Program-made: the position numbers and the translations under genes
Shown: in pieces, positions 46,035 to 50,433 of the stretch
How positions within the stretch are numbered: the stretch's first letter is position 1
Layout: every line of letters starts with the position of its first letter
Source: an uncultured bacterium
GTDB lineage: Bacteria > Patescibacteriota > Minisyncoccia > Moranbacterales > GWC2-37-73
Assembly (NCBI GenBank): GCA_903837175.1
Contig: CAILTR010000092.1
Location: 1 to 52,482 of the forward strand
Direction: 5' to 3'
Length of the DNA: 52,482 nt
Notes under the pieces: model-generated
Told to the model about the DNA's origin: nothing
Seen by the model: the letters and a program-made list of their open reading frames with translations, nothing else
Databases searched by the model: none

Positions 46035-46060
46035 ATAAGCTTGATTATTTTAGGCAATAA

Positions 46061-46090
46061 AAAAACTTCAACTAGAGTTGAAGTTTTTAT
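46061..46090. terminator. Bidirectional terminator after the pil cluster
   Basis: AAAAACTTCAACT and AGTTGAAGTTTTT pair around AG. It also overlaps the stop of the minus-strand zinc-finger-like frame (46087-46089). Confidence 0.9.
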
Positions 46091-46191
46091 TTGTGCGCGT
46101 GGCGGGACAGCTTTCGAACTTTTGAGTGGTTGGGGGACTTGCCTGATCCAGACACGATTTTGAAGCAGGTAGGGCAGTTGTTGGCTTTAAT
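46087..46191 (-). other. Zinc-finger-like 34-codon frame following the stop of the 46192-46449 gene
   Basis: In frame after the TAG at 46192-46194, the sequence reads IKANNCPTCFKIV... then SPNHSKVRKLSRHAHK and a TAA. The CxxC (codons 6-9) followed by H22, H31 and H33 looks like a small zinc-binding module with a basic helix. There is no ATG, GTG or TTG start before CPTC; ATT is the first codon after the stop. It is either the lost tail of the upstream protein, a product of readthrough, or a decayed or unconventional small gene. Confidence 0.4.
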
Positions 46192-46449
46192 CTAATTTGT
46201 GCTTTCGTTATTGGACTGGGGCTCTTTTTCAACTCCGCCAAAAGCTATATATAAAAAACCCTTCCAAAGTCCAACCATGATAGCCCAGTAAATTGCAAAT
46301 CCCAATACAATATCAAATACGATAAAAATGTTTATTTCTTCTTTTGTGTAAAAAGCAGAAATTAGAACCATTGTCTGCACAATCCAAAAGAATACCTTTG
46401 CGCCTCTGAAATACCACTTTTTTTCTAAATCTGCTTTCTTTATTGGCAT
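46192..46449 (-). CDS. Small two-helix membrane protein, unknown function
   Basis: 85 residues. Basic head (MPIKKADLEKKWY), two hydrophobic segments (about 17-33 and 41-62) and a charged tail (EKEPQSNNESTN). No family recognised. Followed in frame, after the TAG, by a zinc-finger-like stretch (46087-46191). It is the last of four minus-strand genes starting at 49283, although the 90-base gap to the previous gene leaves room for its own promoter. Confidence 0.55.
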   Translation of the reverse strand: MPIKKADLEKKWYFRGAKVFFWIVQTMVLISAFYTKEEINIFIVFDIVLGFAIYWAIMVGLWKGFLYIAFGGVEKEPQSNNESTN

Positions 46450-46539
46450 AGTCTTGTTCTTAGGTTTTATTAATTTAATTTTGTCGTTTATTCTTAACTT
46501 TCTTTAATTATACTTATCGGAAGCCAAAGTTATTTTTGG

Positions 46540-46905
46540 CTAGTTTTGGGGGTATCTTTTATAACAATTATTCTCATTTTCCTTGGCTCGCTTATTATTA
46601 TCATCAACCATATAACTTAAATCCGCATTGCTTATTTTTCCAGCTTTTTGCATTTCAGCAAAGCCCAAATTGGTGTTTAATTGATTTTTTCTATTTTTTT
46701 CTAAACACTCACTTAAATTAACTACCCTGGCTTCTTTTTCTTGTGAGCGTATTTCTTGTTCTTGCTTTTGTTGTTCAACTCTTCCTTTTTCCTTTTGAGG
46801 TAAAAATATAACCAGATAATAGGCAATTGATAAAGCAATAATTAAAGCCCCTGCAATGATGCTAATTTTAAATACTTTGTCTAATTTTGTAGATTGTTTC
46901 TCCAT
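46540..46905 (-). CDS. Small membrane-anchored coiled-coil protein, unknown function
   Basis: 121 residues. One membrane helix (about 14-31, IAGALIIALSIAYYLVIF in part), then a highly charged helix rich in Q, E, K and R (EKGRVEQQKQEQEIRSQEKEA in part) and a polar tail with two Cys (SECLEK, NNCYKRY). It lies four bases after the SecD-head/transglutaminase gene and is probably cotranscribed with it. No family recognised. Confidence 0.6.
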   Translation of the reverse strand: MEKQSTKLDKVFKISIIAGALIIALSIAYYLVIFLPQKEKGRVEQQKQEQEIRSQEKEARVVNLSECLEKNRKNQLNTNLGFAEMQKAGKISNADLSYMVDDNNKRAKENENNCYKRYPQN

Positions 46906-46909
46906 ATTA

Positions 46910-48712
46910 TTATTGGTAAAAACTTCTTAAAAGATTATTGTATTTAGTGTTCAACTGGTTACGGGTTGCAATTTTATTATTGAAGTCTTTTCTGTCTTTT
47001 TCAAAATTAGAGTATGTTTTTTTATATTTAGAGTACAAGCTGTTATAGTCATTATATGCACTAGCATCACTACTCTTAGCTAGTTTGTTTAGTCTTTCCA
47101 CCATTTTGCCAATTTCTGCATCACGATCTTTCAAGTCATTTCTGGAATCATTAAGTTCGCGATCCATGCTTCTAATGGTAGTAATAAGACTAGCTAATTC
47201 CTTTTGAGTATTGAAGGTATCTATTACTCCAGTATAGGATAGTCCGTCAATTTTATTTAAAATTTCTATTTTTCCAAGAGGGCTGTAATCACTCTCGGTA
47301 GAATCATTTGAAAAATCGGTAAGTTCTATTTTTGAAGTAGCTGTTCCAAACTCTTTTGAGAGACTTGGGGTAGCCCCTATTTTATTTCCAAGGCTTGTTG
47401 TTTCAATAAAACAATATCCTGAATCATAATTGGAATACTCTACAGGACATTTTACTCCAATTGCCATATGATTATCTGCTGGATCTGGAAAAAGAAAAAT
47501 TGAAACGCCATAGCCCAAATCTTTCAGTAATGAATAAGCCAAATAGCTTTTATCTTGGCAGACCCCCTTGTTTCCATATAAAACTTCATAAGGATAGGTA
47601 ATCTTTTCTGAATACCCGCCGAGGCCTGCTTTTCTGTTGTTAAATTTCTCGGTATCGTATGGAATTGTTTGAACAAAGGTTGATACTAGCTCAACTAACT
47701 GATTTTCGTTAAGCTTGTTTTTTTCGCCAATATTTTTCAATGATTGAGCAAGCTCGTTTATTGTTTTGTCATCAGTATTTCCATTGATAAACATCTCGTT
47801 TGTTTTCTCTAGTTCTCCAATCATGGATTCGCCATTAAAGTTACTTTGGGCAGGAAGAGAATTGTAAAATTTATAATAGGAATCATACAGTTTTTCATGT
47901 AAGGTGTGGCCTTTTCCTTTATATCTCCAATCAAATGTTACTGTTTTTTCTCCTTCTGGGGCTGGAATTATAGTGTTGTCAGTTCCTGTTTTTGTGTTAA
48001 TTTTATCTACCCTCCAATAACCACCATCCATTTTTGTCATTATCAAATCAAAGCCATTATTATTGCCTGTCTTTATAATAGTTATTGTTGCACCATCTTT
48101 ATCTGTTATGCTTTTTCTTATTTTGAATCCATTTAGCATGCTAATCTTTTCTTCGCTAATCGAATCAACAATTAATTTGACTCTATTAGCATCCTGACCA
48201 GAAATAACAGCCTCACCATTCGTTATTTCAGTCTGGACAACTGGATCAATAACCAAAATACCATTCAAGAAAATAGCCAACTTTTTGTTAATGTTTCTTT
48301 TGGTAATTTCTGCAAAAAGCTCGGTGCCTTTGTCATTAAATTTTAATGAAACTTCAGGACTAGCAGTCCCATTATTTGAGTATGTCGTTGAAACATCCTT
48401 TAGATATTTTCCAGAAAGCCCTGTCGAAATATACACTTCCGCGTCCTTACTCTTTTCGGGATTCTCCTCTTTAATTTCAAGTATGGAGGTATTCATGCTA
48501 TCAATCCACTCCCGAGATTGTGCCGGAGATTCACCAAAATTTTCAGCAACACTTTCTATATTGAGATACTTTTCAACTTTTGCGTTCTCATTTTTTACAA
48601 TTGCATTTCTGAGTTCATATAAAGAATATTCAGGTGTACCAGTGAAATAGTAAACAAACCCAGCAGACACAACCAATAGAAGAATGATTATGCTAGCGGT
48701 TATTTTTAGCAT
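46910..48712 (-). CDS. Envelope protein joining a SecD P1-head-like domain to a transglutaminase-like domain
   Basis: 600 residues from the ATG at 48712; this start is one base after the stop of the upstream gene, and the frame beyond it to 48793 is not family-like. One N-terminal membrane anchor (3-23). Residues 30-80 resemble a DUF4878-type helix region. Residues 93-190 match the periplasmic head of SecD/SecDF: TGLSGKYLKDV, VSLKFNDKGTELFAEITKRN, LAIFLNGILVIDPVVQTEIT, GEAVISGQ. Residues 335-440 are transglutaminase-like with the triad positions C385 (KGVCQDKS), H415 (ADNHMAIG) and E437 (CFIETTS) in place of Asp. A long coiled coil (500-600) ends the protein. It is presumably extracytoplasmic; the substrate is unknown. 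Confidence 0.75.
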   Translation of the reverse strand: MLKITASIIILLLVVSAGFVYYFTGTPEYSLYELRNAIVKNENAKVEKYLNIESVAENFGESPAQSREWIDSMNTSILEIKEENPEKSKDAEVYISTGLSGKYLKDVSTTYSNNGTASPEVSLKFNDKGTELFAEITKRNINKKLAIFLNGILVIDPVVQTEITNGEAVISGQDANRVKLIVDSISEEKISMLNGFKIRKSITDKDGATITIIKTGNNNGFDLIMTKMDGGYWRVDKINTKTGTDNTIIPAPEGEKTVTFDWRYKGKGHTLHEKLYDSYYKFYNSLPAQSNFNGESMIGELEKTNEMFINGNTDDKTINELAQSLKNIGEKNKLNENQLVELVSTFVQTIPYDTEKFNNRKAGLGGYSEKITYPYEVLYGNKGVCQDKSYLAYSLLKDLGYGVSIFLFPDPADNHMAIGVKCPVEYSNYDSGYCFIETTSLGNKIGATPSLSKEFGTATSKIELTDFSNDSTESDYSPLGKIEILNKIDGLSYTGVIDTFNTQKELASLITTIRSMDRELNDSRNDLKDRDAEIGKMVERLNKLAKSSDASAYNDYNSLYSKYKKTYSNFEKDRKDFNNKIATRNQLNTKYNNLLRSFYQ

Positions 48713-48713
48713 T

Positions 48714-49283
48714 TTAATTCTTTCTTTTTTTTTCTCTTTTTTGATAAAGAAAATAAATATAAAATAATATTGACAGTATCGGAAGAAACACACTTGCCAA
48801 TGTGGCTATTTTAGTGTTCATGCTCAATAGCTTTGCCAACTTTCTACAGTAATAAATACCAAGAATCCAAATGTAAAATAGCAACGAGGAAATTGTCACA
48901 CCTATCATATTAACATTCGCAATGTTTGTATGTAACTGAATACCCCCGTTTCCAGTTTTATAAGAAACAAAATAAACCAGTGCTCCGCCTAAAGCCCAAA
49001 ATAAAAAGAGGAATGAAGGTAATGTTATGTCTTCTTTTCTTCTAATCAAAAAATAAACCGCTGTTATGATAGACAAACAACCGAAACCAAGCACAATTCT
49101 CCATAAATTCACATTGCCAATTGATGCTTTTTCTACAACAGTAAGATTGTTAGCATCTATTAAAAAAGGGTTGCAAATAATAAGGAACACAAAAGACAAA
49201 AACAATGCCCGAAAGAAAGCTGACACATTTTTTTTAAATCTACCACCTTTTATTGGTTGTTCTAACGCTTTAGGTTTATCCAT
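48714..49283 (-). CDS. Membrane protein with five to six helices, unknown function
   Basis: 189 residues. Hydrophobic segments near 25-42, 58-78, 87-105, 122-142 and 158-180; the last is followed by the basic tail KREKKRKN. The ATG at 49283 is downstream of a minus-strand promoter candidate (49389-49416). Its stop is one base before the start of the SecD-head/transglutaminase gene, so the two are coupled and probably work together. No family recognised. Confidence 0.6.
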   Translation of the reverse strand: MDKPKALEQPIKGGRFKKNVSAFFRALFLSFVFLIICNPFLIDANNLTVVEKASIGNVNLWRIVLGFGCLSIITAVYFLIRRKEDITLPSFLFLFWALGGALVYFVSYKTGNGGIQLHTNIANVNMIGVTISSLLFYIWILGIYYCRKLAKLLSMNTKIATLASVFLPILSILFYIYFLYQKREKKRKN

Positions 49284-49592
49284 ATTATTAAATAAGAAAT
49301 AAAAAAACAGCCAAAAAGAGGGCTGGGATGGTGAGGATTTTTTTGTTGAATTTTCCTTGATTTTTCATATCAATCTTAATTTAGTTCTAATTTAGCACCT
49401 TTCTTGATAATAGCAAGCTTTTGCGGGTTACAAAAAAGAACAACTGGAATCACCCCGTAGGGGATTTTAACGTTAATTTGAATATGGAAACAAGTGAATA
49501 ATAGCATTGAATAGAAAAAATTCAATTATCCTCATGTGCTCGAGGTTCTAAACTTTGTTTCTATTTATAATGTTGGGATAATGATAATTTTT
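49284..49592. other. Intergenic region: promoter of the minus-strand envelope operon and two hairpins
   Basis: A minus-strand terminator-like hairpin CAGCC/GGCTG with a T run (49301-49325), the promoter candidate TTGCTA-N16-TAAATT (minus, 49389-49416), and a hairpin AATC-a-CCCC-GTA-GGGGATT with four Ts (about 49450-49470). No gene is seen. Confidence 0.5.
49389..49416 (-). promoter_or_regulatory. Promoter candidate of the envelope operon
   Basis: On the minus strand TTGCTA (49411-49416) and TAAATT (49389-49394) are 16 bases apart, about 106 bases before the ATG at 49283. Confidence 0.45.
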
Positions 49593-50267
49593 TTAAAAAT
49601 CGAATTTTTTAATCATTGCTTGTAGCCAGCCCATTGTTTTCCAATAAAATTCAGATTTTAACACGCGCAATTGAATGCAGCCTTTATAGTCCGGATTCTT
49701 TTTTATTTTATGAATAGTTTGCTTGTAAATAGTTTTTTGAAATTGATTGACGGGAATGTTTGTAATCTCTGACCAAAATTTTTCGCATTTTTCATGGGCG
49801 TACAATTTGTGTGTATACAGACGAATTTTTATTTTTTCTTTTGGAACTTTGTGAATTTCTGTTAGCCAGCGCATCATTGCTCGAATTGCGTGTGGATCGG
49901 AATTTGTAAATTGAAACTGTTGTGTTTTCTTGTTTCCCTCTCCCCAATAAAGAGTTAGCCCTAACAAAAAAAGTGAATTTTTTGAGAGGATGACGTATTC
50001 CTTTTCCGCCAGTGCAAAGAGCTTGTTTATTTTTTCTAATCTTTGTTCTTTCTTTGTCCAGGCAGACTTAAGGCGGGCATTGTTGGTAATATTTGCAATA
50101 TTTTTCTCAAGTTTTTCTTTTTGGCTTGAGCTAAGTTTAATGTTTTTTAACCAGCCAGACAAAGTGCTTTTTGAAAGGTTGGGAATATGGCTTTGTATTT
50201 CTCTGTACGTCTTGCCTTGGATGCGTAATTTTATTGATTTGTTTTTATCTTCAAGTCGAAGTTTCAT
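49593..50267 (-). CDS. Helix-turn-helix protein with endonuclease-like or DUF body, CPR type
   Basis: 224 residues from the ATG at 50267. The longer frame to 50387 runs into the tRNA-Arg gene and is rejected. Residues 1-50 form a resolvase-like helix-turn-helix (DKNKSIKLRIQGKTYREIQS, then LSKSTLSGWLKN). A coiled basic segment follows (NARLKSAWTKKEQRLEKINK), then a domain with LYWGEGNKKTQQFQFTNSDP and FWSEITNIPVNQFQKTIYK that resembles LAGLIDADG-like or related CPR proteins. The GEGxK...TNSDP pattern is a common mark of this hypothetical family. It may act on DNA; nothing more can be said. Confidence 0.7.
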   Translation of the reverse strand: MKLRLEDKNKSIKLRIQGKTYREIQSHIPNLSKSTLSGWLKNIKLSSSQKEKLEKNIANITNNARLKSAWTKKEQRLEKINKLFALAEKEYVILSKNSLFLLGLTLYWGEGNKKTQQFQFTNSDPHAIRAMMRWLTEIHKVPKEKIKIRLYTHKLYAHEKCEKFWSEITNIPVNQFQKTIYKQTIHKIKKNPDYKGCIQLRVLKSEFYWKTMGWLQAMIKKFDF

Positions 50268-50360
50268 GATTGTGAACTCGCGATTGTTTATTTTTTTAGT
50301 ATAACACAGGGGTTCATATGTAGCAATAAAAAAACCGACTTTCATCGGATTTTTTCTTTG

Positions 50361-50433
50361 TGCGCTCGGCAGGACTCGAACCTGCAACCCCTTGATCCGA
50401 AGTCAAGTGCTCTATCCTTTGAGCTACGAACGC
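50361..50433 (-). tRNA. tRNA-Arg (TCG)
   Basis: 73 bases: acceptor GCGTTCG/CGAGCGC with discriminator A, D-stem GCTC/GAGC, anticodon loop CTTCGGA giving TCG, T-loop TTCGAGT. CCA is not encoded. Third gene downstream of a minus-strand tRNA cluster. Confidence 0.96.

Follow-up and report, generated by a model that had tools for sequence, protein, structure and literature searches.

A SecD P1 head joined to a transglutaminase-like domain in a membrane-anchored protein of a Moranbacteria bacterium

Closest described systems and architecture of the fusion protein

The P1 head of SecD and SecDF (PF22599; PDB accession numbers: 3aqo, 3aqp, 5yhf) is critical in SecDF-aided translocation, and the extended form of SecDF is thought to handle the precursor (PMC9508474). 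Another relevant group is the transglutaminase-like superfamily, in which DUF553 (PF04473) is family 3 of the 1999 definition, as cited in PMC10318531. In CPR bacteria, the CPR-C4 protease is a cysteine protease with a fold related to this superfamily (PMC9108980). By description, its triad is Cys-His-Leu(carbonyl) and it carries no SecD head; in the protein family analyzed here, Glu occupies the presumed third position.

The window, a 52,482-nucleotide stretch of DNA from a tiny-genome CPR/Moranbacteria bacterium, encodes a 600-residue protein that the original prediction had described as a SecD P1 head-like segment followed by a transglutaminase-like domain and a long coiled coil. This architecture held up: the open reading frame spans exactly the predicted positions and strand (Table 1), both Pfam domains score above their cut-offs, and the coiled coil is present and conserved. 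From the N-terminus, the protein consists of a transmembrane (TM) anchor, a helical module, the SecD P1 head, a predicted four-strand segment, the transglutaminase-like domain and the coiled coil, and the TM helix is expected to adopt an N-in/C-out orientation. In comparison to the DUF553 superfamily, the fusion adds the SecD head, the helical module and the long coiled coil.

Table 1. Positions of the fusion gene, its domains and its surroundings in the window
Feature	Position	Strand	Basis or remark
Native terminator and degenerate tRNA-Arg 3' end copy, att-like left edge (suggestive)	46054..46119	.	
Accessory island, about 4.2 kb	46100..50322	.	absent in sister genome G001
Membrane protein, 85 aa, island gene	46192..46449	minus	ORF, hydropathy
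Anchored helical protein, 121 aa, island gene	46540..46905	minus	not conserved beside fusion
Fusion ORF, 600 aa from ATG	46910..48712	minus	ORF call, Pfam, second instance
C-terminal coiled coil, residues 500-600	46913..47215	minus	common to headless family
Transglutaminase-like (DUF553) domain, residues 258-460	47333..47941	minus	Pfam, family alignment, model comparison
E437, presumed third catalytic residue	47402..47404	minus	33/34, Q in one outlier
C422 and C434, candidate disulfide on outer face	47411..47449	minus	both invariant 34/34
H415, presumed catalytic His	47468..47470	minus	invariant 34/34
C385, presumed nucleophile	47558..47560	minus	invariant 34/34
Q348, candidate oxyanion-hole residue	47669..47671	minus	invariant 34/34
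Four-strand segment (predicted), residues 195-245	47978..48130	minus	low-confidence model
SecD P1 head, residues 93-173	48194..48436	minus	Pfam, PDB match, conserved columns
Helical N-terminal module, residues 27-90	48443..48634	minus	weak DUF2939 likeness, below cut-off
Single TM helix, residues 2-23 (inside hydrophobic segment 1-27)	48644..48709	minus	hydropathy
Membrane protein, 189 aa, about 5 hydrophobic segments	48714..49283	minus	homolog of N-terminal 190 residues of fused G055 protein
A9 run just before stop of 189-aa membrane protein	48725..48733	minus	+1 shift joins frames as in G055
HTH-like protein, about 224 aa, island gene	49593..50267	minus	start inferred
tRNA-Arg(tcg), right edge of island, last gene of four-tRNA array	50360..50433	minus	

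The ordinary relatives of this protein are TM, transglutaminase-like and coiled-coil proteins of about 390-440 aa that form a widespread "headless" family. Moranbacteria-type members (L002, L040, L041, L042, L033) share the transglutaminase-like domain and coiled coil with the fusion at 30-48% overall identity, and differ from it by lacking both the head and the fused membrane part (see below). One of them, L002, is a 395-aa paralog on another contig of the same genome (36% identity over residues 258-596), and the headless proteins closest to the fusion come from another family of the order, f10.

Around the head, residues 19-59 of the fusion resemble DUF2939 with an E-value of 0.01, under the cut-off and over the N-terminal half only. 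The E-value improved to 0.0017 once the head was excised from the query, with a match still below the cut-off and confined to the N-terminal half, and none of the relatives matched DUF2939 above the cut-off. In the model, residues 27-90 and 195-245 possibly belong to a single DUF2939/NTF2-like module that the inserted head interrupts; because the pTM of this model is 0.32, we treat this reading as a lead only.

The P1 head and the transglutaminase-like domain

The original prediction placed SecD P1 head homology at residues 93-190. The homology is borne out by the Pfam match to SecDF_P1_head (PF22599; residues 91-174, E = 2.1e-17; bit score 63.5, cut-off 27), by NCBIfam SecD/SecDF models that match this stretch with E-values of 1e-12 to 1e-13, and by matches to the Thermus thermophilus SecDF structures 3aqo and 3aqp (E about 1e-9 to 1e-8; 3aqo, 1.2e-9), while the likeness ends at residue 173. 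Compared to SecD heads from within the order, identity is 49-59%, and it is 49% to the head of the true SecD of this genome. Conservation in 80% or more of 42 SecD heads defined 46 SecD-conserved columns. Overall, 27 of the 46 columns are retained in the window protein, and within residues 97-172 it has 26 of 31, including the motifs TGLxGK and EITNGEAVI; past residue 173 nearly all conserved columns are gone, including GALPVP of the P1 base. As the likeness is kept through residue 172 and lost after 173, a sharply bounded piece of SecD was taken.

The remainder of SecD is missing. The P1 base model PF21760 (SecD_1st) has no Pfam match in the fusion protein and the post-head GALPVP strand is lost; models of the GG motif and the RND-type 6-TM domain (Sec_GG, SecD_SecF_C) likewise found no matches, whereas the real SecD of this genome has both. 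With base, GG motif and channel absent and the head joined to an enzyme domain, the fusion is not a SecD member. Plasmid records gave 28 matches to the head, and wherever a gene name lay under the match it was secD.

Superposition on SecDF, proposed earlier as a check on the head, was partly informative. The structure predictions ran on alignments of two rows each, and the head model is itself poor (pTM 0.32, pLDDT 42); within it, the segment aligns in register with SecDF residues 152-250 (Z 4.0, 87 residues, 23% identity).

In the presumed catalytic domain, DUF553 matches residues 319-421 (E = 9.4e-6; bit score 25.6, cut-off 20.5). With E-values of up to 1 accepted, 34/34 family members match DUF553 and 31/34 match Transglut_core. 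The residues C385, H415 and E437 lie where the original prediction located them. In the alignment of 34 members, C385 and H415 are invariant together with Q348, C422 and C434, and E437 is kept in 33. As the Cys, His and third polar residue of the transglutaminase-like superfamily occur in order in the fusion protein, its sequence assigns it to this superfamily. Comparison of the domain to the PDB by sequence gave no match, and a Foldseek search with the model alone returned nothing significant. The model (pTM 0.56, pLDDT 52) places the Cys directly before a helix and the His and Glu on following strands, with secondary structure in the transglutaminase order. The longest VIA-align matches of this low-confidence model, covering most of its length, included TglA, a TGase, TG3, FXIII, PNGase and TgpA, with Z-scores of about 5-6.5 that are only supportive.

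The Glu in place of Asp had been considered odd, a point that we do not uphold: the Glu is kept family-wide, it recurs in the ETT motif of a distant relative (L143), and according to a review, the third residue in papain-like enzymes is usually Asn, Gln, Asp or Glu (PMC10318531). Glu at the third position is a normal papain-like variant. The distant relative is a 602-aa protein (L143:2203-4011) with a TolA-like coiled stretch, then a transglutaminase-like domain (GDCEDTS, GHMAVGV, YYYIETT), then Cys-rich repeats.

Genomic setting, recurrence and origin

We found the full architecture once more, in genome G055 (family f10, same order), in a protein that is 53% identical end to end. The fusion therefore occurs in 2 of the 131 genomes of the order, and the class sample (384) and phylum sample (380) contained only SecD or headless transglutaminase-like proteins; a literature search found no paper on the pairing of a SecD head with a transglutaminase-like domain, in agreement with its predicted rarity. 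The pairing is new within a known enzyme superfamily, and neither part is new. Recurrence in a second genome takes the architecture well beyond chance, and a second full-length instance in another family rules out an assembly chimera. Downstream of the G055 fusion lies a PemK/MazF-like toxin gene (L035:6834-7241; name read from sequence).

The fusion gene had been proposed to be coupled to a membrane protein gene upstream and a small anchored coiled-coil protein gene downstream. The upstream half of this proposal stands, as in G055 the membrane protein and the fusion are joined in frame as one 793-aa ORF. The downstream 121-aa protein has patchy relatives only, and in G055 it does not occur next to the fusion. 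A conserved three-gene operon is not supported, and the upstream membrane protein is the only conserved partner. In the window, TAA-A-ATG parts the two genes. The frame of the 600-aa protein is open upstream of its ATG, and by direct reading the G055 sequence fits this upstream frame gap-free from the start Met to a GTPEY motif. The split at the A9 run may be genuine, reflect slippage or stem from an error in the sequence.

The fusion gene lies on an island beside a tRNA gene. On its flanks, PilM-like and VanW proteins share 85-89% identity with those of the same-genus sister genome G001, which rules out contig contamination, and in G001 both flanks abut without the 4.2-kb insert. The GC content of the island genes is 31-34% versus 38-41% around them. 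In a tree of the transglutaminase-like domain, the window protein groups with that of G055 (95/97), then with other f10 proteins, apart from its own family's f1 copies. A low-GC, tRNA-side island absent from the sister genome, together with this branching, makes horizontal gain of the fusion gene probable, and it is the plainest reading. Scans of viral contigs for relatives found none. In two other sister genomes, G003 (L118) and G005 (L119), the same hotspot holds unrelated genes: radical-SAM-like and TrmB-like in the former, response-regulator-like and diguanylate-cyclase-like in the latter, all names being read from sequence.

Proposed function

From the domains, their conservation, the second instance, the membrane-protein fusion, the island and the f10 branching, we infer a membrane-anchored, extracytoplasmic papain/transglutaminase-like cysteine enzyme, a reading to which we give a probability of roughly 45%. 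The SecD P1 head, gained between the TM anchor and the catalytic domain, would bind polypeptide that is unfolded or has just been exported and would present the bound chain to the Cys-His-Glu site, which would most likely hydrolyze peptide bonds and possibly act as an acyl-transferring crosslinker. The coiled coil may form an oligomer or tie the enzyme to a partner. The membrane part of the enzyme would be the upstream membrane protein, which belongs to the same polypeptide in the G055 relative. The gene would be accessory, imported on the tRNA-side island from another Moranbacteria-type family. We count against this reading the pLDDT of the two models (52 and 42), the fast-evolving head and a headless family that works without it. 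The function suggested in the original prediction was an envelope complex that may hold or process exported proteins.

Several of these points bear on a rather unlikely alternative, in which the head binds no polypeptide and is a mere structural spacer or dimerisation module on an elaborated headless surface enzyme. The heads of the two fusions are 42% identical compared to 66% for the transglutaminase-like domains, and the G055 head keeps fewer SecD-conserved positions than the window head and lacks many of them, which could mean that SecD-like binding has been lost; the wide spread of the headless family fits the same idea. The 26 of 31 conserved columns in the window head, with both motifs intact, instead suggest retained function.

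We consider it quite improbable that the protein is a true transglutaminase that crosslinks surface or pilus proteins. Its fold family, envelope anchor and coiled coil would suit such a role, and in the window genome the gene adjoins a pilM/N/O-like operon; however, this operon is on the opposite strand, convergent with the fusion gene, the gene is an island insertion that G001 lacks next to the same operon, and the headless paralog maps to a different contig. Moreover, many bacterial members of the transglutaminase-like superfamily are hydrolases.

Less likely again is co-translocational processing at the Sec exit, not described before, in which the SecD head, anchored to the membrane through the fused multi-TM part, would grip emerging chains and feed them to the built-in cysteine protease or transglutaminase. 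Least likely is a conflict function as cell-surface-anchored weapon or defence cargo of the island. It is favored by the tRNA-Arg edge, by an empty site or different genes at this position in sister genomes, by the lower GC content and by a weak PADLOC match to PDC-S55 at the anchor. On the other side, there is neither an immunity gene nor a delivery signal, no defence model scored convincingly, and the gene family is widely carried in headless form.

In this protein, the P1 head occurs outside SecD as a portable module with sharp bounds and is coupled to a presumed enzyme. If the head still binds unfolded chains, this binding could be examined in a small protein that lacks the translocation motor, and the fusion would be a case of enzyme recruitment to proteins that have just been exported.

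A separate pairing, on which a literature search found no paper, occurs in the SecD proteins of the order themselves. In the SecD of this genome (L003:865-2538; genome G000, contig C50) and in others (L021-L032), a PpiC-type rotamase lies within P1 just before the head, matched in the former by PF13616 with an E-value of 4.4e-26.
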